Of a stretch of DNA of 32,841 nucleotides, positions 4,977 to 19,269 are shown piece after piece (within the stretch, counting starts at the first letter, position 1; every line of letters begins with the position of its first letter). The stretch is from Campylobacterota bacterium. GTDB lineage: Bacteria > Campylobacterota > Campylobacteria > Campylobacterales > Sulfurovaceae. Both the position numbers and the translations under genes were made by a program. The DNA lies in NCBI GenBank assembly GCA_011048515.1, contig DSDW01000094.1, positions 1-32,841 on the forward strand, read 5' to 3'. Below the pieces are notes generated by a model. It was not told the origin of the DNA. It saw only the letters and a list, made by a program, of their open reading frames with translations, and did no database searches.

Positions 4977-6065
4977 ATGCGGTATAAAATAGGGTTTTTT
5001 CTCCCGGCACTTGAGAGCAAAGGCGGTGTAGTTGTTTCTGTACAGACTATTGCAAATCACCTAAAAGAATTAGGACATGAAGTACATCTCTTCCCTATAG
5101 GTAAAACTACCACCAAAGAGACCCCCTTTCTGCATCCAATCAATTCAAACTATAAGTCTAAACAACTTCAGTTAGTAAAAAAGCTTTATGCCAAAGAATC
5201 AGCCAAAAGGAAGTTTGATCTTTTAGTCTCTAATCATCTTATTTCCAACTATATACTCCATCATTTAGATGTTGGTGATCAGCATTTAATGGTGCTTCGA
5301 CAACCATCTCTATTGAAACATGCAAATGTACTAAGTAAAATAAAAAAAAGAATTCTATTTCCCAAAATATATAATCATAAAAATATTGTTATGATTTCTC
5401 AGTGTCTACTAGATGACTTTTTGACAAAACATCCTTATCTAAAGCCCAAAAGTAGCCGTGTTATTTATAACTCATATGATCCTGAACTGCTAGATATCAA
5501 AGCAAAGGAAAAAATAAATCTTCCCACTGAAAAAGAATACATTATATCTGTAGGTCGATTTACAAAAACTAAAAATCAATCTATGTTAATACATGCTTTT
5601 GAAAAAGTAAGTAATAAAAATATAGACCTCATTCTACTTGGAGATGGCAAAGAAACACATTCTCTAAAAATTCTAGTAAATAAGTTGAACCTTAATGAAA
5701 GAGTACACTTTATTGGCTGGAAAAAGAATCCTTATCCATACATCAAACATGCCAAACTCCTTGTACATACATCCAAATCAGAAACTTTTGGTAGAGTAGT
5801 ACTGGAGGGGTTGGCATTAAATACCCCTGTTATCAGTACAGATATTAAGTGCGGACCTAATGAAATTTTGACTGATGAACTAAAAGATTTTCTTGTGCCA
5901 CTCAATGATATTTCTCTTTTAACGGAAAAAATTGAACTTGCATTAAAACACTATCCAGCAATTGAATCCAAACACCTGGAAAAATTTAAAGTTGACTCCA
6001 TTGCCCAAGTATATATTGACTTTATAAAAGAAATGGCACATTATCATGATGAATGTCTTAAATAG
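4977..6065 (+). CDS. Family 4 glycosyltransferase
   Basis: The 362-residue GT-B protein carries FFLPALESKGGVVVSVQTIA at the N-terminus, YIISVGRFTKTKNQSMLIHA at the donor site, and the EX7E motif in SETFGRVVLEGL, followed by KCGPNEIL. VHFIGWKKNPYPYIKHAKLL is nearly the same as in the divergent minus-strand GT4, so one probably arose by duplication of the other. Length is normal for GT4. Its own promoter and an AAAGG site precede the ATG. It probably adds a hexose to LOS core or a related glycan, but the donor is unknown. Confidence 0.87.
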   Translation: MRYKIGFFLPALESKGGVVVSVQTIANHLKELGHEVHLFPIGKTTTKETPFLHPINSNYKSKQLQLVKKLYAKESAKRKFDLLVSNHLISNYILHHLDVGDQHLMVLRQPSLLKHANVLSKIKKRILFPKIYNHKNIVMISQCLLDDFLTKHPYLKPKSSRVIYNSYDPELLDIKAKEKINLPTEKEYIISVGRFTKTKNQSMLIHAFEKVSNKNIDLILLGDGKETHSLKILVNKLNLNERVHFIGWKKNPYPYIKHAKLLVHTSKSETFGRVVLEGLALNTPVISTDIKCGPNEILTDELKDFLVPLNDISLLTEKIELALKHYPAIESKHLEKFKVDSIAQVYIDFIKEMAHYHDECLK

Positions 6066-6099
6066 CTTCGCAACTACCATTATCGTCTAAGGAAACAAA

Positions 6100-7083
6100 A
6101 TGAATAGTATAAAAGTCAGTATCATCATACCTGCTTATAATGTAGAAAACTATATAGAACGTTGCGTAAAAAGTGGGATGAATCAAACTTTAAAAGAAAT
6201 AGAAGTCATTATAGTTAATGATGGATCCACAGATAGAACACAGGAGATCATCGAGAAAAATTTTTCCAGAGACAACAAAGTAGTTATTGTTAACAAACAA
6301 AATGAAGGTGTATCAGTTGCGAGAAACTATGGTGTGAAAATAGCAAAAGGCGAGTACATACAATTTTTGGATGGTGATGACTGGATAGAACCAACAGCTT
6401 GTGAAAAAATGTATAAGTTTGCAAAAAAAGAAAACTTAGACATTGTTGTATCCGACTTGTTTTATGACGATGATAATAATAATATAACAGTACGTAAAGA
6501 GTTGAATTCTAATCAACGTTTTTTTACAAAGGAAGAATATTTAATCGCACTATTTCAAGACAAAGCTGCTAGAGCAGTTTGGAACAAAATTTTTGTAAAA
6601 ACACTATTTGATGAGGAAACTTTTCCAAGAGGAGTGGCATATGGAGAAGATTTTGTTGCTACTGTAATCCTAACATCAAAAGCAACTAAGATTGGAAAAT
6701 ATAATGATGCCTTTGTTCATTACATAAAAAACCCATTAAGTACAACTCAAAATCAAGTATCAAAAAAAATATATCATTTATTCAATGTCTTTCATCATAT
6801 TGAAACTTACTTTCAGAGAAATGATCATTATCAAACCTATTACGATGAGATAGAGAAAAGTAAACAAAAAATAGTGTACAGATTTTTAAAGCAAGAACCG
6901 TTCTTTGGCGACGAAAACTATGAAAAAGGAATTGAAAAGACTTTAGAATATTTCAAGAGTAAACCGAAAATATATAAAAACTTGAACTTTTCAAGACGAT
7001 TAAAAATGGCCTTTTTGACAAAGTTTCCAAATAGAAAAAATATTGTCAGGATGATCAAATTTCATAATAAACAACATCTCTAA
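6100..7083 (+). CDS. Family 2 glycosyltransferase
   Basis: A classical GT2 protein of 327 residues. KVSIIIPAYNVENYIERCVK is at the N-terminus, VNDGSTDRTQEIIE at about residues 40-53, and the DXD-type FLDGDDW near residue 90. These form the nucleotide-sugar pocket of the GT-A fold. A TAAGGAAA site lies seven bases before the ATG, and the preceding GT4 ends 34 bases upstream, so they are likely co-transcribed. The C-terminal third is lysine-rich and may sit on the inner face of the membrane. It is the last gene of the AT-rich glycosyltransferase block; no rho-independent terminator is visible after it. Confidence 0.88.
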   Translation: MNSIKVSIIIPAYNVENYIERCVKSGMNQTLKEIEVIIVNDGSTDRTQEIIEKNFSRDNKVVIVNKQNEGVSVARNYGVKIAKGEYIQFLDGDDWIEPTACEKMYKFAKKENLDIVVSDLFYDDDNNNITVRKELNSNQRFFTKEEYLIALFQDKAARAVWNKIFVKTLFDEETFPRGVAYGEDFVATVILTSKATKIGKYNDAFVHYIKNPLSTTQNQVSKKIYHLFNVFHHIETYFQRNDHYQTYYDEIEKSKQKIVYRFLKQEPFFGDENYEKGIEKTLEYFKSKPKIYKNLNFSRRLKMAFLTKFPNRKNIVRMIKFHNKQHL

Positions 7084-9444: not shown

Positions 9445-11428
9445 TCCAAATCAAAATAACGATAACAACAAGAACAACAATTTTTTCAACAACAACCCCC
9501 TTCTGGCATTTGCAATCTTCTCCATCGTGGTGATCATGATCTTCAAGGTGATGGTCGGCGACGGCGGAGGCGAAGGGCTGGGGAATGTTCTTGGAGATCA
9601 GCAAGTCACACAGAACAAGCGCGTCACCTACTCCGAGATCAAAAAGCAGATCAAAGAGGGCAATGTGGAGAGTGTAAAGATCGCCTCAAGCACGATCGAA
9701 GCGATAGTCACAAACCCAAACGGTGTAAAAACACGATACAGTGCGAGCAATGTACCGGCTTTGGACAGAGAACTGATCCCGCTGCTTGAAGAGAGAGGGA
9801 TCAGATACGAAGGTGTGATCGGGAACGGTTTCTTTGCCGAAATGTTCAGCATGTTGCTGCCGATCATCATCTTCTTTGCCATCTGGATATTTCTGGCTCG
9901 GAGAATGTCCAAAGGAATGGGCGGAGGGATCCTGGGTGCCGGCAAAGCGGACAAACTGATCAACTCCGAAAAGCCAAATACCAAATTTGATGATGTGCAG
10001 GGGGTTGAAGAGGCAAAAGATGAAGTCAAAGAGATCGTTGACTTTCTTAAATACCCTGAGCGCTATATGGAGCTTGGAGCGAAGATTCCAAAAGGGGTAC
10101 TTCTGGTGGGACCTCCGGGTACAGGGAAAACGCTTCTGGCAAAAGCGGTTGCAGGTGAAGCCGAAGTACCCTTCTTCTCTGTCAGCGGATCGGCATTTAT
10201 CGAGATGTTCGTAGGTGTGGGTGCGAGCCGTGTACGTGACCTCTTCGCACAGGCAAAAAAGGAAGCTCCTTCGATTATCTTTATCGATGAGATCGATGCG
10301 ATCGGTAAATCGCGTGCAAGCGGCGGACAGATGGGCGGAAACGATGAGCGCGAGCAGACCCTCAACCAGCTCCTTGCAGAAATGGATGGATTTGGTACGG
10401 ATACACCTGTCATTGTACTGGCTGCCACCAACAGACCTGAAACACTCGATGCGGCGCTATTGCGTGCAGGACGTTTTGACAGACAGGTGCTAGTGGATAA
10501 ACCGGATTATGAAGGGCGTCTGGCGATCCTGAAAGTCCACTCAAAAGATGTAAAGCTTTCACACGGTGTTGACCTGGAAGTGGTAGCAAAACAGACAGCA
10601 GGATTGGCCGGTGCGGATCTGGCAAACATCATCAATGAAGCTGCTCTGCTTGCAGGACGCGGGAACAAGAAGAAGATCGAGCAGTCTGATCTGCTTGAAG
10701 CAATCGAAAGGGCTTTTGTCGGTCTTGAAAAGAAAAACAGAAAAGTCTCTGACATGGAGAAGAAGATCGTTGCCTACCATGAAAGCGGCCATGCGCTCAT
10801 GGCGGAACTTACAAAAGGTGCAACACGTGTCACCAAAGTGTCGATCATTCCAAGAGGACTTGGTGCGCTCGGGTATACGCTTCACCTTCCAAGCGAAGAG
10901 GACAGGTTCCTTAAGCAAAAGCATGAACTGCTTGCAGAGATCGATGTACTCCTTGGGGGACGTGCAGCCGAAGAGGTATTCATCGGCGAGATCAGTACAG
11001 GTGCAGGCAATGACCTTGACCGTGCCACAGCGATCATCAAAGATATGATCACCGTCTACGGTATGAGTGATGTTGCGGGTCTGATGGTACTCAAGAGAAG
11101 CCAACACAGTTTTCTCGGCGGAGCGGGTGCTATCACTGAGTACAGTGAGAAGATGTCCGAGGCGATCGATACACATATCAAAGCCACACTTGAAGAGCAT
11201 TACCAATATGTCAAGCAGACCCTTCGTGACTATCATGGTGCGATAGAGAAAATGGCTGCCGAACTGCTGGAGGTAGAGGTGATCGAAGGAACGACAGTCC
11301 AGAAGATCATCGATGAGTATGAAAAAGAGCACAACATGCCAAGCCGCCTTGCACATAAACCAAAGAGTGAAGAAAAAAACTCACAGGAGAGTGCATCGGA
11401 ACAAGATGACGAGGGTACGGAAAAGTAA
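9437..11428 (+). CDS. ftsH: ATP-dependent zinc metalloprotease FtsH
   Basis: FtsH is a membrane AAA+ protease that pulls out and degrades damaged membrane proteins and short-lived regulators. The protein has 663 residues. Membrane spans lie at about 22-40 and 136-154. Walker A GPPGTGKT is at 225-232, Walker [12 protein letters not shown] at 280-290, the second region of homology in [17 protein letters not shown], and the zinc site HESGH at 448-452, with the third ligand Asp in GAGNDLD near 526. All catalytic residues are present. Odd feature: the cytoplasmic N-terminus before the first span is mostly asparagine (11 of residues 2-20). AAGGAAACG precedes the ATG, which overlaps the prmA end. 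The C-terminal tail is acidic and Ser/Glu-rich. Confidence 0.97.
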
Positions 11429-11446
11429 AGGATAAAAACTATCCTT
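11428..11446 (+). terminator. Short hairpin at the ftsH stop, weak terminator candidate
   Basis: AAGGATA (11428-11434) pairs perfectly with TATCCTT (11440-11446) across a 5-base loop. The following bases, GACTTTCC, are not a real U-tract, so termination would be weak. The 3' arm overlaps the -35 box of the next promoter. Confidence 0.35.
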
Positions 11447-11473
11447 GACTTTCCTCGTCAAAATCATTATAAT
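11445..11473 (+). promoter_or_regulatory. Consensus promoter of the leucine leader-leuA unit
   Basis: TTGACT (11445-11450) and a perfect TATAAT (11468-11473) are separated by exactly 17 bases, a near-ideal housekeeping sigma promoter. The expected start, about 11480, gives a long leader of about 270 bases before leuA that carries a small ORF, hairpins and a dispersed repeat. Confidence 0.8.
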
Positions 11474-11495
11474 TTTAAAAAAATCAAAGGAGAGT

Positions 11496-11567
11496 ATGAT
11501 GAAAACAATCATCAATAAAAATAAAATTATCAAACAAGATAGTACTCTCCTGCTGCTCTCACTCTAA
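11496..11567 (+). CDS. leuL: Leucine leader peptide upstream of leuA
   Basis: A short ORF of 23 codons (22 from the second ATG at 11499) follows a strong AAAGGAGAG site at 11486-11494. It ends in Ser-Thr-Leu-Leu-Leu-Leu-Ser-Leu, encoded by four consecutive Leu codons CTC CTG CTG CTC, then TCA CTC and TAA. The leuA start is 186 bases downstream. Leader peptides rich in the pathway's end product are the hallmark of ribosome-stalling attenuation: scarce Leu-tRNA stalls the ribosome on the Leu run and favours read-through. The spacing to the second ATG (six to seven bases) is better. The ribosome site GGAGAGTA can pair with TACTCTCC at the Leu codons, an extra self-occluding fold. The Leu run and position are seen; the mechanism is inferred. 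Confidence 0.82.
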   Translation: MMKTIINKNKIIKQDSTLLLLSL

Positions 11568-11599
11568 TTTTTCCCACAACAATATTCTATTTTAGCGTT

Positions 11600-11630
11600 T
11601 CTAATTAACCGTAAATTCGGTAGAATTAGA
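11600..11630 (+). promoter_or_regulatory. Hairpin after the Leu leader, candidate attenuator
   Basis: TCTAATT (11600-11606) pairs with AATTAGA (11624-11630) and ACCG (608-611) with CGGT (618-621), around a 6-base loop with a small internal bulge. The downstream CAGTTTTACTTT is a modest U-rich stretch. The hairpin starts 33 bases after the leader stop, where an attenuator terminator would be expected. The stem is AT-rich, so a weak terminator is possible. TAGAAT at 11621-11626 could instead be a secondary -10. Confidence 0.4.
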
Positions 11631-11644
11631 CAGTTTTACTTTCA

Positions 11645-11716
11645 GTCATCCTGAGTTAGTTTCAGGATCTCATTGACTGGTCATCCAGAGAGATTCCGGA
11701 TCAGGTCCGGAATGAC
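11645..11716 (+). repeat. Composite palindromic element, copy A (leuA leader)
   Basis: Two hairpins in a fixed order. Type II: ATCCTGA (11648-11654) pairs with TCAGGAT (11662-11668). Type I: ATTCCGGA (11693-11700) pairs with TCCGGAAT (11706-11713). The whole runs from GTCAT to ATGAC, inverted ends. Related copies lie at 13317-13410 (inverted) and 13506-13608, so this is a dispersed non-coding repeat inserted in the leader between the attenuator region and the leuA ribosome-binding site. Confidence 0.8.
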
Positions 11717-11753: not shown

Positions 11754-13313
11754 ATGAGTAAAGAAATAATAAAAATATTTGACACCACATTGAGAGACGG
11801 CGAGCAAAGCCCCGGCGCGTCGATGAACACAGAAGAGAAGATCCAGATTGCTGCACAGTTGGAGCGTTTGGGTGTAGATATCATAGAAGCGGGATTTGCA
11901 GCGGCAAGTCCGGGAGACTTCGATGCCGTCAGCAAGATCGCACAGCGTGTACAGAACTCCACGATCTGTTCTTTGGCGCGTGCTATAGATGCCGACATCA
12001 AAGCGGCCGGTGAAGCAGTCGCAGCAGCCAAGATGAAGCGTATCCATACCTTTATCGCAACCAGCCAGATCCATATGGAGTACAAGCTTAAGATGAAACC
12101 CGATGAAGTGATCCGGCGTGCAGTCAGAGCGGTGGAATATGCCAGAGAGTTTGTCGAGGATGTGGAGTTCAGCTGTGAGGATGCGGGACGTTCTGATATC
12201 GGATTTATGAAAGAGATCACCGATGCCGTGATAGAAGCCGGCGCAAGCACGATCAACTTGCCGGATACGGTAGGCTTCAGGCTTCCCAGCGAGATTGGTG
12301 CGATGGTCAAAGAGATGAGCGAATATACCAGAGGGCGTGCCATCATCTCCGTACACAACCACAACGACTTGGGGTTGGGTGTGGCAAACTCGCTTGAAGC
12401 GATAATGAACGGGGCAAGACAGGTGGAGTGTACCATCAACGGTTTGGGAGAGAGAGCGGGAAATGCCGCACTTGAAGAGATCGTCATGGCGATCAAAACA
12501 CGCCAGGATATCTTCCATGGCTTTGATACCAATATCAATACCAAAGAGATCTACCCGACCAGCCGCCTGATCGCCAATATTACCGGTATCGAACCGCAGC
12601 CCAACAAGGCGATCGTCGGTAAAAATGCCTTCGCACACGAAAGCGGTATCCACCAGGATGGTGTATTGAAGCACAAAGAGACCTATGAGATCATCCGTCC
12701 CGAAGATATCGGTTTGGATATGGAAGATACCCTGGTGTTGGGTAAACACTCAGGCCGTGCAGCGTTCAAAGACAAATTGGCAAAACTTGGCTTTACCTTG
12801 AACGATGATGAGCTTAACAGCGCCTTTGAACGTTTCAAAGAGTTGGCGGACAAGAAAAAAGATATCTATGATGATGATATCCGTGCCTTGGTCACCTCAG
12901 AGATGACGACGATCGAAAAGGCGTACGAATTGGTTGCAATGCAGCTTATGGACTCTACCGGAGGCGTTCCGAGTGCTGCGGTGACGATCAGACATAACGG
13001 TGAAGATACCACCGATGCGGGGATCGGTGACGGGACCATCGATGCGGTATTTAAGACCATTGACCGTATCACAGGTTACCAGGGACAACTTTTAGACTAT
13101 AAAGTGAAGTCTGTCTCTGAAGGGAAAGATGCTTTGGCCAATGTCACGGTAAAAGTCACCTTCAATGCAAATGAACCGGCGATCATCGGTCACGGTTTGA
13201 GCCTCGATACGATGCTTGCCAGTGCAAGAGCCTATATCGGAGCACTGAACAGTTATTTGAGTATGGAAGGGAAGTTGAAGATACGCCATACAGACAGCAC
13301 CGAGACGATCTAA
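11754..13313 (+). CDS. leuA: 2-isopropylmalate synthase
   Basis: LeuA condenses acetyl-CoA with 2-oxoisovalerate, the first committed step of leucine synthesis. The 519-residue protein is the bacterial full-length type. [16 protein letters not shown] (residues 9-24) carries the catalytic Arg14 and metal-binding Asp15. The [13 protein letters not shown] block holds further metal-binding His residues, and [13 protein letters not shown] follows. The C-terminal third (from about residue 390) is the LeuA dimer domain that binds leucine for feedback inhibition. AAGG lies 8 bases before the ATG. It sits alone behind a leucine leader; leuB, leuC and leuD are not nearby. It is therefore probably controlled twice, by attenuation and by allostery. 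Confidence 0.96.
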
Positions 13314-13316
13314 CAC

Positions 13317-13410
13317 GTCATTCCGGACCACGATCCGGAATCTCTCCCTATCCAACAAAATCATTTCAAACTTGAACCGCAATGAGATTCTGAAACGAGT
13401 TCAGAGTGAC
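13317..13410 (-). repeat. Composite palindromic element, copy B (inverted, after leuA)
   Basis: Read on the minus strand this has the same order as copy A: type II TCTGAA/TTCAGA (13405-13389), then type I ATTCCGGA/TCCGGAAT (13341-13320). GTCA-type ends are kept. Minus-strand AGAGATTCCGGATC and GGTCCGGAATGAC match copy A, and so does the flank ATCTCATTG. It starts three bases after the leuA stop. It lies in the 339-base gap 13314-13652 between convergent leuA and serS, where I find no gene and no canonical terminator. The type I hairpin may fold in both transcripts. Confidence 0.75.
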
Positions 13411-13505: not shown

Positions 13506-13608
13506 GTAGTCCTGAACTTGCACCCCAAGGGTATTTCTTTCGGGTATTCAGGATCTACGTATTTCAAAACATTAAAGCTTGTGGATTCCGGATCAAGTCC
13601 GGAATGAC
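13506..13608 (+). repeat. Composite palindromic element, copy C (expanded type II)
   Basis: The same II-to-I order on the plus strand. TCCTGAA (13510-13516) pairs with TTCAGGA (13547-13553), but its loop has grown to 30 bases and holds an inner ACCC/GGGT stem. Then ATTCCGGA (13585-13592) pairs with TCCGGAAT (13598-13605) and the unit ends GGAATGACGG. It is the second element in the leuA-serS gap and lies head to head with copy B. Confidence 0.75.
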
Positions 13609-15006: not shown

Positions 15007-18000
15007 TTAGAACTCTTGCGCTACCATGATATTTTCAATATCAAAGGTACAACTCTCTTGTCCACCCGGAATAGTAATCGTATATGTGACGTACGATCTA
15101 CCTAAACTTGAATACCCATTGTCACATGTTCTTGCATCATAATCATTACTAGATTTTACATACTGCCAGGAACATGTGCTTCCTGACTCAACAGAATGAG
15201 TAAAGTGTGCATTACGATATGCTTCAGGTGCATTTTCATGCCAAATTTCAAATGTCACATTGACATCATCACCTGGTAGTCCTTTAAATGTATGACCATC
15301 TGAAGGGACTTGAACGAATCCTGTTCCTCTAAGTGTATGTTTAGTCACCTCACCTACACGTATTTGTTTACCTGTATCTGGCTGGTATCCATCAAGGTTC
15401 ACCCAGATAAGGGCATCTTTCCCTGTCAAATGATAGTCATATCTATAATCAACTGTTACAGTACCTTCTTCATCCAACTGATAGGTTTCGGAATCTGTTG
15501 TACCGATCCACTCGCGTCCATCTTCACGACATAGATCTTGATAGTAGTTATGTCCTACTGCAAAGTATAGGCCATCTCTATTCACACCATAGTACTGATC
15601 TTGTAATACCAAAATATTATTGGCACCCCCAAGTTCCATATCCCATTTACCCATCGCTTCATAATTTTTTCTTTCACCGAAAACAACAAGCTTGTCAGTA
15701 TTATTACCTTCCACATTCACATACTGGAATACATCTGTATTAATCGTATCTGTGAAGGTAGTGGTAGAAGGATCACTATCACCAGCATTGTCTATCTCAC
15801 CATTAGCATAACCTAGATCAATATCAGACTTACCGTAGAAAAGTCTTTTTGTTTCATTGGTTTCGGTAGAACTAGCTTCACTTCCGTCCACTGCATAACC
15901 TACGATTGCTCCCAATGTCACATTAGGTCTGGTATTCACCTTATTGCCATACTCATCTGTCACTGAGATAGCTAAAGTCTCTATGTATTTTGCTCTGGAA
16001 GCATCTTGTGATGTACTTACATACGAGATACTGATTGCCGATGGCGGTCCAGAGAAGACTCTTACATTCACAACGGTTGATAGGTTTTGTTCCTCACCAT
16101 TTGCATCATCAAATGTGATAGACACTTCTAGAGGAACCAATCCTGATTTATCTTTCGAGACTAAAATAAATGCACTGTTGTTTACTGGAATGAGCGATAA
16201 AGTATTGACCAGAGTACTACTGTCTGTATCTAAGATCTGTGCTATCGTTGCATTTGTTGTAGTAACAGTAATATTGGTGATATTCTCATCTGTTAACGCT
16301 ACTTCATTGCCTGATGGATCTTTTGCTTTTAAGAATACATTAAATGTCTTCTCTTTGTCTGGTATACCCATACTGAAGTCATTGCTGGTAATCACGTTGA
16401 GTTCATAGTTTCTCGAAACATATGGATTATCCGGAAGAGTATACTCTACTGTCCAATTTTGTTTGTCTTCACTGTTCTCGACATGGTAGAACTTGAAGAT
16501 ACTACCATTATCATCATTACTGATTAGTGCCTGTAAATTGCTCGGACCTGTATAAATAAATGTAGCAATACCTAATTCATTTACATTCACTTCATATGCA
16601 TCAAATTGCCCTACATCTACACCATCTAGTACTTTTTCCGGAAGTTCAACTTTCACACTACCTTCAGTATACGGTGCAATATCCTTAAAGACTTTCAATG
16701 CTAACTCTATTGTCATAGAGTTGCTATTTAGTGTCACAATCCTTTGTTCTAATGGAATAACAACAACTGGCAATGTCGTATCCTCAATATAGCTATCTGT
16801 GGTTTCATTAAATATGACTGTAATATTTTCCTCTAAGTGGGTACTCCCCTCATCAAAATGTATCGTCATTGCAAAGGTTGTACCGTTAACCTCACTAAGA
16901 TCAGCTGGTGCCATATAGGTAAATACTGCATAGCCTAAAGAATCGGTTTGAACGGTATAAGGAGTAATCAGTGTACCGTTACCTTCATCAAATCCATTCA
17001 TAGTCACCGTTTTCCCCGTTATAGGTGTACCATCGTATAGCAACTGAGCTTTTACATCTCTCTTTTCACTAGCATGATTGATTTCGATATTTGAAATATT
17101 AATAAACTCATACTCAGTGGTAGCCATGCTAGAAAAACTAACTGCTACATTCGTATCATGACTGTTCGTTGCATTCGGGATAGAGAAGGTGATATTAAAG
17201 TCTGCAACCCCTGCAATGCTTGCCGGTGCCGTATATTCGAACACTACCTGACCATTTGCGTTAGTAATCCCGCTGTATGCATTCAATGTACCGCTTGAAG
17301 GATTAAAGAAATGGGCTATGATCTCCTGCCCCTCTACCGGCTGGCTTGTGCTCGTATCATTCAGGAAGAGTGACAGTTCTCTGCTCTCTCCATCTTTTGA
17401 AATAACTAAAGTTTCAGGTATTACAGTTAGATTATAAGTATCTGTATTCACTGTAGGTGTAGAGGTAGACGTGAAGTTCACTGCTACATTCGTCTCATGA
17501 CTGTTCGTTGCATTAGGGATTGAGAAGGTGATATCAAAATCGCTCAGTCCGCTGATACTCTCCGGTGCCGTATAGTTAAATACGACCTGTCCGTTTGCGT
17601 TAGTAATTCCGCTGTATATGCTCAGTGTACCTTTTGCAGGATCAAAGAAGTGTGCTATGATCTCCTGTCCCTCTACCGGCTGCATAGTGCTTGTATTATT
17701 CAGGTAGAGTGCCAAGGCTCTGCTCTCTCCGTCCTCTGAAATATTCACACTTGCAGGCACTGCTGTAAGGTTATAGTTTGTTGTATCCACGGTCGGTGTA
17801 GAAGTCGATGTAAAGTTCACCGCTACATTCGTATCATGACTGTTCGTTGCATTCGGGATCGAGAAGATGATATCAAAGTCTGTAGCCCCTGCTATGCTTG
17901 CCGGTGCCGTATATTCGAACACTACCTGTCCGTTTGCGTTAGTAATTCCGCTGTATGCGCTCAATGTACCGCTTGCAGGGTTAAAGAAATGTGCAATGAT

Positions 18001-19269
18001 CTCCTGCCCCTCTACTGGCTGGCTTGTGCTTGTATCTTCAAGGAAGAGTGACACCACTCTGCTCTCTCCATCTTCTGAAATATTGATACTGCCTGGCACC
18101 GCATGCATATTATAGGTAGCTGTATTCACGGTTGGCGTAGATGTTGATGTGAAATTTACAGTTACATCTCTCTGGAGTCCGGGTGTCCCGTTCAGCACTT
18201 CAAACGTGATATTGAAACTGCCTGAGGGGAGTGTCTCGGGTGCCGTATAATTGAATACCACCTGACCGTTGCTGTCCGTTGTCGCAAGATAACTGTTCAG
18301 CGTCCCGCTATTTGGATCGAACCATAACGCCCTGATATCCTTGTCAGCTACAGGCTCATGTGTTGCAGTGTTCGCAAGGTAAAGCGAAAGTGCCCTGCTC
18401 TCTCCTGCTTCAGAAATATTTACTGTACTCGGTACAGCTAGTAACTCCATCCCCGTTGTATCCACTTCCGGTCCAGCTGACGCAGTAAAGTTCAGAACTA
18501 TCTCTTTTGGAGTAATACTTGTATTCTCATCAACAAAATAGTCTGCAGTAAGAGTCACACTGCTGCCATATGCGGGAAGTGTCTCCGGAGAGGTATATTC
18601 AAATGTAACATATCCGTCAGAGCCTGTTGAAGCCTCGTAAATGGCTATATCTCCATAGGTATTGTCAAATGGTCGAAGTTTTATTGTTTCGCCCACTGCA
18701 ACATATCCATCTTTTAACAGTTGAACTTTGATTTGATACTTTGTATCTGCTTCGCTGATCGCTAAAGGTGTTGTTGCATTATAAAAGCTATAGCCATCTT
18801 CTGGTTGAAGGTCAACACTCCCGCTATAATCAAACATAAAACTTACCTGGCGTGTATCACTCTGGTTTCCACTTGTGATCTTCTGTGTCGCTGTCAACGT
18901 GTAGCCAGTCGGTGTACAGTTCGCATCAAATGTTCCTGAGATATAAAGCGTTTCTACTGATCCCTCTCCCCCGTCAAACGATAATTTAATTGCAGGGTTA
19001 TAAGTAATTGTATTGATCGAACATCCACCCGTTACCTCCAGACTAAAGCTGTTTAGCTCTACAAGATAGGCTTCACCGATCAATTTTTTAAAAGGCAGCG
19101 TTAAAGAGAAGTCAGTACCATTCGGCGCCTGCAGAATTTCCTGACCCTCTAGCTCTAAGACATCAGAGAGTACAGCATTCTGTTCTCCGTCCGACTTGCT
19201 GTTACTTCCACACCCCGTCAGCGCGACAGAAAACAGAAATGTCAATATGACTAAAATATTTTTCATCAT
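15007..19269 (-). CDS. Large surface lipoprotein with tandem Ig-like repeats
   Basis: The 1420-residue protein begins with a lipoprotein signal: a hydrophobic stretch at 5-17, lipobox LTGC and the acylated Cys20, followed by Gly and Ser. This favours the outer membrane. Residues about 270-720 hold four tandem units of about 113 residues with Ig-like (Big-type) features. Recurring segments are NISEDGESR, PVEGQEIIAHFF and GTLSAYSGITNANGQVVF. More diverged beta-rich Ig-like domains follow (about 720-1100). The C-terminal 300 residues look different, with three Cys and many Tyr, and may be the functional head. AAGGA lies eight bases before the ATG. It is the second gene of a pair with an outer-membrane barrel 18 bases upstream. 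It resembles adhesins or surface stalk proteins, but no named family is recognised and no binding function is claimed. Confidence 0.85.
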   Translation of the reverse strand: MMKNILVILTFLFSVALTGCGSNSKSDGEQNAVLSDVLELEGQEILQAPNGTDFSLTLPFKKLIGEAYLVELNSFSLEVTGGCSINTITYNPAIKLSFDGGEGSVETLYISGTFDANCTPTGYTLTATQKITSGNQSDTRQVSFMFDYSGSVDLQPEDGYSFYNATTPLAISEADTKYQIKVQLLKDGYVAVGETIKLRPFDNTYGDIAIYEASTGSDGYVTFEYTSPETLPAYGSSVTLTADYFVDENTSITPKEIVLNFTASAGPEVDTTGMELLAVPSTVNISEAGESRALSLYLANTATHEPVADKDIRALWFDPNSGTLNSYLATTDSNGQVVFNYTAPETLPSGSFNITFEVLNGTPGLQRDVTVNFTSTSTPTVNTATYNMHAVPGSINISEDGESRVVSLFLEDTSTSQPVEGQEIIAHFFNPASGTLSAYSGITNANGQVVFEYTAPASIAGATDFDIIFSIPNATNSHDTNVAVNFTSTSTPTVDTTNYNLTAVPASVNISEDGESRALALYLNNTSTMQPVEGQEIIAHFFDPAKGTLSIYSGITNANGQVVFNYTAPESISGLSDFDITFSIPNATNSHETNVAVNFTSTSTPTVNTDTYNLTVIPETLVISKDGESRELSLFLNDTSTSQPVEGQEIIAHFFNPSSGTLNAYSGITNANGQVVFEYTAPASIAGVADFNITFSIPNATNSHDTNVAVSFSSMATTEYEFINISNIEINHASEKRDVKAQLLYDGTPITGKTVTMNGFDEGNGTLITPYTVQTDSLGYAVFTYMAPADLSEVNGTTFAMTIHFDEGSTHLEENITVIFNETTDSYIEDTTLPVVVIPLEQRIVTLNSNSMTIELALKVFKDIAPYTEGSVKVELPEKVLDGVDVGQFDAYEVNVNELGIATFIYTGPSNLQALISNDDNGSIFKFYHVENSEDKQNWTVEYTLPDNPYVSRNYELNVITSNDFSMGIPDKEKTFNVFLKAKDPSGNEVALTDENITNITVTTTNATIAQILDTDSSTLVNTLSLIPVNNSAFILVSKDKSGLVPLEVSITFDDANGEEQNLSTVVNVRVFSGPPSAISISYVSTSQDASRAKYIETLAISVTDEYGNKVNTRPNVTLGAIVGYAVDGSEASSTETNETKRLFYGKSDIDLGYANGEIDNAGDSDPSTTTFTDTINTDVFQYVNVEGNNTDKLVVFGERKNYEAMGKWDMELGGANNILVLQDQYYGVNRDGLYFAVGHNYYQDLCREDGREWIGTTDSETYQLDEEGTVTVDYRYDYHLTGKDALIWVNLDGYQPDTGKQIRVGEVTKHTLRGTGFVQVPSDGHTFKGLPGDDVNVTFEIWHENAPEAYRNAHFTHSVESGSTCSWQYVKSSNDYDARTCDNGYSSLGRSYVTYTITIPGGQESCTFDIENIMVAQEF
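17113..18465 (-). repeat. Four in-frame tandem repeats of about 339 bases in the lipoprotein gene
   Basis: A landmark in each unit recurs at 17255, 17594 and 17933, exactly 339 bases (113 codons) apart. A more diverged fourth copy lies 336 bases further. Approximate unit limits are 17113-17451, 17452-17790, 17791-18129 and 18130-18465. The first and third of these (as listed) share long runs with only scattered mismatches, more alike than either is to its direct neighbour over the same stretch. This suggests duplication or gene conversion. Unit length is a multiple of three, so copy number could change without frameshift. Confidence 0.9.

Follow-up and report, generated by a model that had tools for sequence, protein, structure and literature searches.

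The window analyzed here, a stretch of 32,841 nucleotides from a Campylobacterota bacterium of the Sulfurovaceae (GenBank contig DSDW01000094.1), carries on its plus strand, in this order, hisH, hisA, a methyltransferase-like gene (named by eye), ftsH and leuA, and a seryl-tRNA-synthetase-like open reading frame (ORF; likewise named by eye) is oriented towards leuA. The leuA gene (11754 to 13313) encodes 2-isopropylmalate synthase, with 704.6 bits against TIGR00973 (cut-off, 598.7) and a score above the cut-off of NF002086. Between the end of ftsH at 11428 and the leuA start at 11754 lie a promoter, a ribosome site and a leader ORF, which are on the plus strand, as are all features of this interval described below. 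Rfam returned a tRNA as the sole match in the whole window, where no leader, T-box or riboswitch family exceeded its gathering score; between 11400 and 11800, at E values up to 5, there were weak matches only, far under the gathering scores. Elsewhere, a second leuA-like ORF was seen on contig C49 of genome G000 (5303 to 6373; locus L002), with 32% identity across residues 8 to 376, and the minus strand of the window holds, at 15007 to 19269, an ORF of 1,420 residues that, judged by eye, starts like a lipoprotein and contains domain-like units in repeated form.

The leader promoter, TTGACT-17-TATAAT (11445 to 11473), matches the consensus at 11 of 12 positions and ranks first among the seven promoter candidates in the 3 kb scanned, and a -10 element with at least five of six matching positions occupies the equivalent place in 120 of 131 leaders. 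It is followed by the ribosome site AAAGGAG (11486 to 11492) and by the leader ORF, MMKTIINKNKIIKQDSTLLLLSL (11496 to 11567), whose 22 to 23 codons end in LLLLSL before the stop. By its spacing, the second ATG, at 11499, is the likelier start; most relatives have a single ATG at this place. Four consecutive Leu codons, CTC CTG CTG CTC (11547 to 11558), and a fifth, CTC (11562 to 11564), place five leucines among the last six residues of the peptide, and 186 nt separate the leader stop from the leuA ATG. The promoter with its 17-base spacer, the ribosome site and the short ORF with four Leu codons and then one more had been called in the original prediction, and these details check out.

The leader is widespread. 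The search for leuA covered 78 genus genomes, 73 of them with a match, and genome contigs, from which 80 of 580 confirmed loci were kept; of 111 leuA loci, 108 had a leuA start, and removal of identical upstream sequences left 97 distinct upstreams. A script that searched upstream of leuA for an ORF with a Leu run, together with a ribosome site, succeeded in 84 of these 97. Among its 13 misses, L080 and L095 have less than 140 nt of upstream sequence, and a leader is visible by eye in L090, L099 and L107; in 8 of the 97 upstreams, neither the script nor the eye detects a leader. In other families of the order, 46 leaders, hand-picked and some of them doubtful, were accepted among 70 loci. Measured on equal-length leaders in pairs that were 5 to 45% different, dN/dS of the whole leader ORF is 0.33 to 0.42 in frame (0.24 to 0.43 by segment) and 1.4 to 1.5 in the +1 frame, consistent with in-frame purifying selection. 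The leader is thus not due to chance, since such an ORF stands in most upstreams and evolves like translated sequence. A leucine leader is well supported by these comparisons, and the Leu codons, on whose conservation in close relatives the original prediction had hung, are kept in close and distant relatives alike.

Leaders of this kind are already known, having been predicted across Epsilonproteobacteria and found to be translated in Campylobacter jejuni. In the accessible part of a C. jejuni transcriptome paper of 2013 (PMC3847290), LeuL is a predicted peptide of 28 amino acids with five Leu codons, rare ones, whose RNA extends only a short way past the stop codon; orthologs are reported in most Epsilonproteobacterial genomes having leu genes, in a genome set that names Sulfurovum. 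Ribosome profiling of C. jejuni detected initiation at LeuL, according to the part at hand of a second paper (PMC11955535). As portrayed in these two sources, LeuL leaders have 20 to 35 amino acids, several Leu residues near the end and a ribosome site, and lie directly upstream of leu genes; the window leader resembles them in its 22 to 23 residues, its Leu-rich C terminus, its AAAGGAG and its place upstream of leuA. A stretch like G-V-I-K-A-x-K-F-L-P-K-I-E-I-K-N precedes the Leu run in 27 leader ORFs at loci within L161 to L230 (families f3, f8, f9, f17, f19 and f21). For these 27, pS is 0.72 against a pN of 0.18, a dN/dS of about 0.08, and here the peptide itself, beyond its Leu codons, seems to be under selection. 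The literature searched held no mention of LPKIEI, and the window peptide, unlike these LeuL leaders of other families, has no LPKIEIKN-type stretch.

The leader ribosome site is complementary to the leader's own Ser/Thr-Leu-Leu codons. In the window, the 5' strand of this helix, P1, is AGGAGAGTAT (11488 to 11497), which covers the leader Shine-Dalgarno (SD) site, and the 3' strand is GTACTCTCCT (11542 to 11551), made up of the Ser-Thr-Leu-Leu codons; they form 10 pairs at -15.8 kcal/mol, 8 of which appear in the MFE and centroid folds. Pairing of the SD site with the final 42 nt of the ORF has a probability of at least 0.5 in 88 of 89 family leaders and 36 of 46 others. Synonymous codons drawn at leuA usage lower the mean SD pairing from 0.96 to 0.53 in the family and from 0.75 to 0.49 in the others, and leuA ribosome sites of the family are 0.54 unpaired on average. 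TTA and TTG make up 2% of the Leu codons in family leaders, 63% in their leuA genes and 29% in ten window ORFs. The family counts of 86 to 89 used here and below join leaders from genus genomes and contigs with five from the other-family listing, and include at least two loci titled as other genera (L108 and L111).

Because the spacing from SD site to start varies, P1 was tested by permuting SD/ORF pairs and not by counting columns on alignment A5 (76 sequences); removal of near-duplicates reduced the set from 135 to 122. In the family, own pairs beat permuted ones, none of 5,000 permutations being as low, and this result holds for 22 representatives at most 66% alike. The same test is weak in other families, where 113 of 5,000 permutations, or 1,485 of 5,000 with 18 representatives, did as well. 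For the window alone, synonymous shuffles pair as well in 4% of cases at window usage and in 14% at the pooled usage of the leaders. Clear joint changes are found in L081, L085, L091 and L097. At the level of sequence, these data show P1 to be a conserved complementarity that covaries in the family.

More than 40 nt beyond the Leu codons stands a hairpin, H1 (CTAATT-A-ACCG..CGGT-AG-AATTAG; 11601 to 11629; dG, -7.8), which model matches and pair counts identify as conserved. When 95 loci were searched with a covariance model built from 14 hand-chosen seeds among 41 H1 sequences, 63 matches came out at E up to 5. The window's own genome gave a single match below E 1, and 54 of the 78 genus genomes had matches at E up to 0.01. 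Of these 57 genus-genome matches, 55 lie at most 400 nt ahead of a leuA match and the other two are not near one; H1 is conserved and almost exclusive to leuA. In an alignment that was fitted to the structure and takes in a small number of weak matches, the share of paired cells is 98.1% versus 96.9% in shuffles, with 17 changed cells one-sided and 7 both-sided; both sides of the outer stem are replaced in L085 and L087 (CCGAUUU/AAAUCGG). Nine of 57 sequences picked by the right-arm pattern form no hairpin ending there, and the median dG is -4.3. The hairpin that the original prediction had described is thus real, whereas its modest U-rich tail is not directly attached: the U-rich stretch ACAGUUUUAC begins 5 nt past the stem, no U run stands directly behind H1, and the sequence after it reads ACAGUUUU.

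The scan for hairpins with a U run, made after near-duplicates had been removed (135 reduced to 130), found no terminator-like hairpin at the window locus. In the family of the window it found 26 in 86 loci versus 12.7 in shuffles (standard deviation, 3.2), and 17 of the 26 end 21 to 26 nt before leuA, so that some relatives may use a true terminator; other families gave 1 in 44 versus 2.1 in shuffles. Folding of the interval from leader stop to leuA has a mean z of -1.20 in the family and 0.11 in other families, and the 277-nt leader of the window reaches -4.57, to which an inserted repeat contributes. We found no partner sequence that could act as an antiterminator once freed by ribosome stalling at the Leu codons. 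By eye, alternative pairings can be drawn, namely a helix between leader stop and H1 (UCUAAU:AUUAGA), a UUAG-UUU-CUAA hairpin and a helix between the right arm of H1 and downstream sequence, and relatives with five Leu codons show a mini-hairpin after the stop (UCGU..ACGA) that is absent in the window. The right arm of H1 lies 132 to 146 nt past the leader stop in L004, L011 and L025; in L004 and L011 the extra distance comes from a repeat inserted between leader stop and H1, TTTAAGCAAAGCTCAAAG..ACTAGTCG, which is unlike the window's repeat. That repeats are tolerated here argues against competing helices between leader and H1.

The right arm of H1, TTTnGnTAnAATTAG in many relatives, resembles a promoter -10 element, and in the window TAGAAT (11621 to 11626) may be the -10 element of an internal leuA promoter, P2; the window copy of the motif, AATTCGGTAGAATTAG, deviates from it ahead of the -10. 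This assignment leans on the context of the motif in relatives. Outside leuA, 11 of 24 motif places, which are those kept as loci and not all matches, are followed, 20 to 35 nt downstream, by a ribosome site with a start codon (the 11 representing about 8 distinct genes), against 0 of 30 for the reversed pattern. Directly upstream of leuA stands TAAAATTAG in the leaderless loci L083, L086 and L096, and TAAAATTAT in L075 and L098. A matrix made from the leaders' own promoters speaks against P2: among family loci it did not single out the element (11 of 86 below 0.1). In family f7 (L190 to L193, L196, L197 and L199), a TATAAT follows the leader in seven of eight leader loci, ending 25 to 27 nt upstream of leuA, and may be a second promoter there too.

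Rho prefers C-rich, G-poor RNA. A G-poor stretch of the leader (11500 to 11604; 6.7% G and 21.9% C), possibly a region of Rho loading, is among the lowest 0.35% of window stretches in G content and in the top 3.7% in C minus G (family median, top 0.9%); the 10 loci measured in other families showed no such excess of C over G. A rho gene was found in the genome (686.8 bits). Because the leader is G-poor, a terminator was not found and the genome carries rho, Rho is probably the likeliest output step in the family.

We propose that a LeuL-type leader senses charged Leu-tRNA through the run of Leu codons near its end, a role to which its anatomy and conservation point. When leucine is plentiful, the ribosome would complete the leader, P1 would close and further ribosomes would be kept from entering; the naked, G-poor leader would then let transcription stop before leuA, most likely through Rho and not through a terminator hairpin. 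When leucine is short, the ribosome would stall on the codons, P1 would be held open and the RNA occupied, and polymerase would reach leuA. The model also draws on the size of the ribosome footprint. P2, overlapping the right arm of H1, may supply basal leuA expression that bypasses the leader, a role that has the support of sequence only. The model is supported by the conservation of the leader, its in-frame selection, the P1 tests, the lack of a terminator in the window, the G-poor leader, the rho gene and the motif context of P2; it is weakened by the terminator-like hairpins of the family, the weak P1 and missing C-over-G excess in other families, the 14% of window shuffles at pooled usage that pair as well, and the matrix result for P2. 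We give the whole of it, from the Leu-sensing leader and self-closing P1 to the likely Rho-dependent stop and possible P2, an even chance of being right. More tentatively, and a little short of even, we suggest that the leader gates itself: its control codons would double as an anti-SD sequence for its own ribosome site, each transcript would probably be read once, and stalling would be reported by the closure of P1 without a terminator/antiterminator pair.

The original prediction had taken the region for a likely attenuator. Under classical attenuation by the ribosome, transcription would terminate at H1 or at another hairpin immediately ahead of the leuA ribosome site, and stalling would favor a competing antiterminator. 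We consider this unlikely here. The conservation of H1, with a U-rich stretch at +5 to +9 in most of the 57 sequences, the doubling of hairpins with a U run over shuffles in the family and the low folding z of the window leader, which stems in part from the inserted repeat, all fit it; set against them are the failure to find a terminator in the window, the distance of H1 from the Leu codons, which grows further in L004, L011 and L025, and the single terminator-like hairpin in 44 loci of other families that retain the leader. The original prediction is thus partly supported: the leucine leader stands, but the attenuator reading holds only in part, and its classical form lacks support at this locus, where no terminator-like hairpin was found and H1 may overlap an internal promoter.

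H1 might instead be chiefly a DNA element, P2 plus an inverted repeat bound by a regulator, with the leader as a separate layer. The right-arm motif of many relatives, its promoter-like placement elsewhere and its position directly upstream of leuA in the three leaderless loci would suit this, but most left-arm changes amount to G-U wobbles (in an alignment fitted to structure), most genus genomes have one match, few for a regulator, and the leaders' -10 matrix fails to single out P2; we rate this reading as improbable. It is very improbable that control is translational, with the leader or its Leu codons masking the leuA ribosome site. The actinobacterial LEU element, at the same genes and with the same idea of Leu codons and an SD box, provides the precedent in the part of PMC1262725 at hand, yet pairing of the leuA ribosome site with the post-stop region or the Leu codons is disfavored, own pairs being no better than permuted ones in 82 family loci and in 44 others. 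That the ORF is a chance one without regulatory role is scarcely credible: against the eight leaderless upstreams stand the conservation of the ORF, selection specific to its frame, its biased codons, the covarying pairing and the translation of LeuL in C. jejuni (accessible part of PMC11955535).

The usual explanation for leader control of amino-acid operons is a switch between terminator and antiterminator. If a translated leader controls leucine synthesis across much of the order and does so without such a switch, as our preferred reading of a Leu-sensing leader with a self-closing P1 would have it, the output step becomes the question. Enteric leu and trp attenuators place successive control codons in a small translated leader before the biosynthetic gene, and the window leader is like them in having such a run before leuA; unlike them, the window yielded no terminator-like hairpin, and other families with the leader generally have none. 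If the anti-SD reading is true, the preference of LeuL for CUN codons, interpreted until now as a means of sensing rare tRNAs, has a second cause. The actinobacterial LEU element also has a Leu-run leader before leuA whose Leu codons pair with an SD box, and classical attenuation was thought unlikely for it (PMC1262725, accessible part); in that element the pairing involves the leuA site and a pseudoknot, whereas in the window the leader's own site is the partner. This element is the nearest idea to P1, with the other SD site as partner. For the proposed output, the E. coli tna operon, cited in the same part of PMC1262725, combines a leader peptide with Rho-dependent termination, and Rho would similarly act here where the leader lacks ribosome protection, as the G-poor leader, missing terminator and rho gene suggest. 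The accessible parts of the two LeuL papers (PMC3847290 and PMC11955535) mention neither P1, H1 nor a possible internal promoter, and in the literature searched, P1, H1 and the absence of a terminator in this group are undescribed.

The repeat inserted between H1 and leuA in the window (11645 to 11716) is a dispersed one, with 15 matches in its own genome including itself, most of them partial. Copies of this palindromic sequence (..TCCGGATCAGGTCCGGAATGAC) lie on both sides of leuA, at 11645 to 11716, at 13317 to 13346 on the minus strand and at 13584 to 13608.
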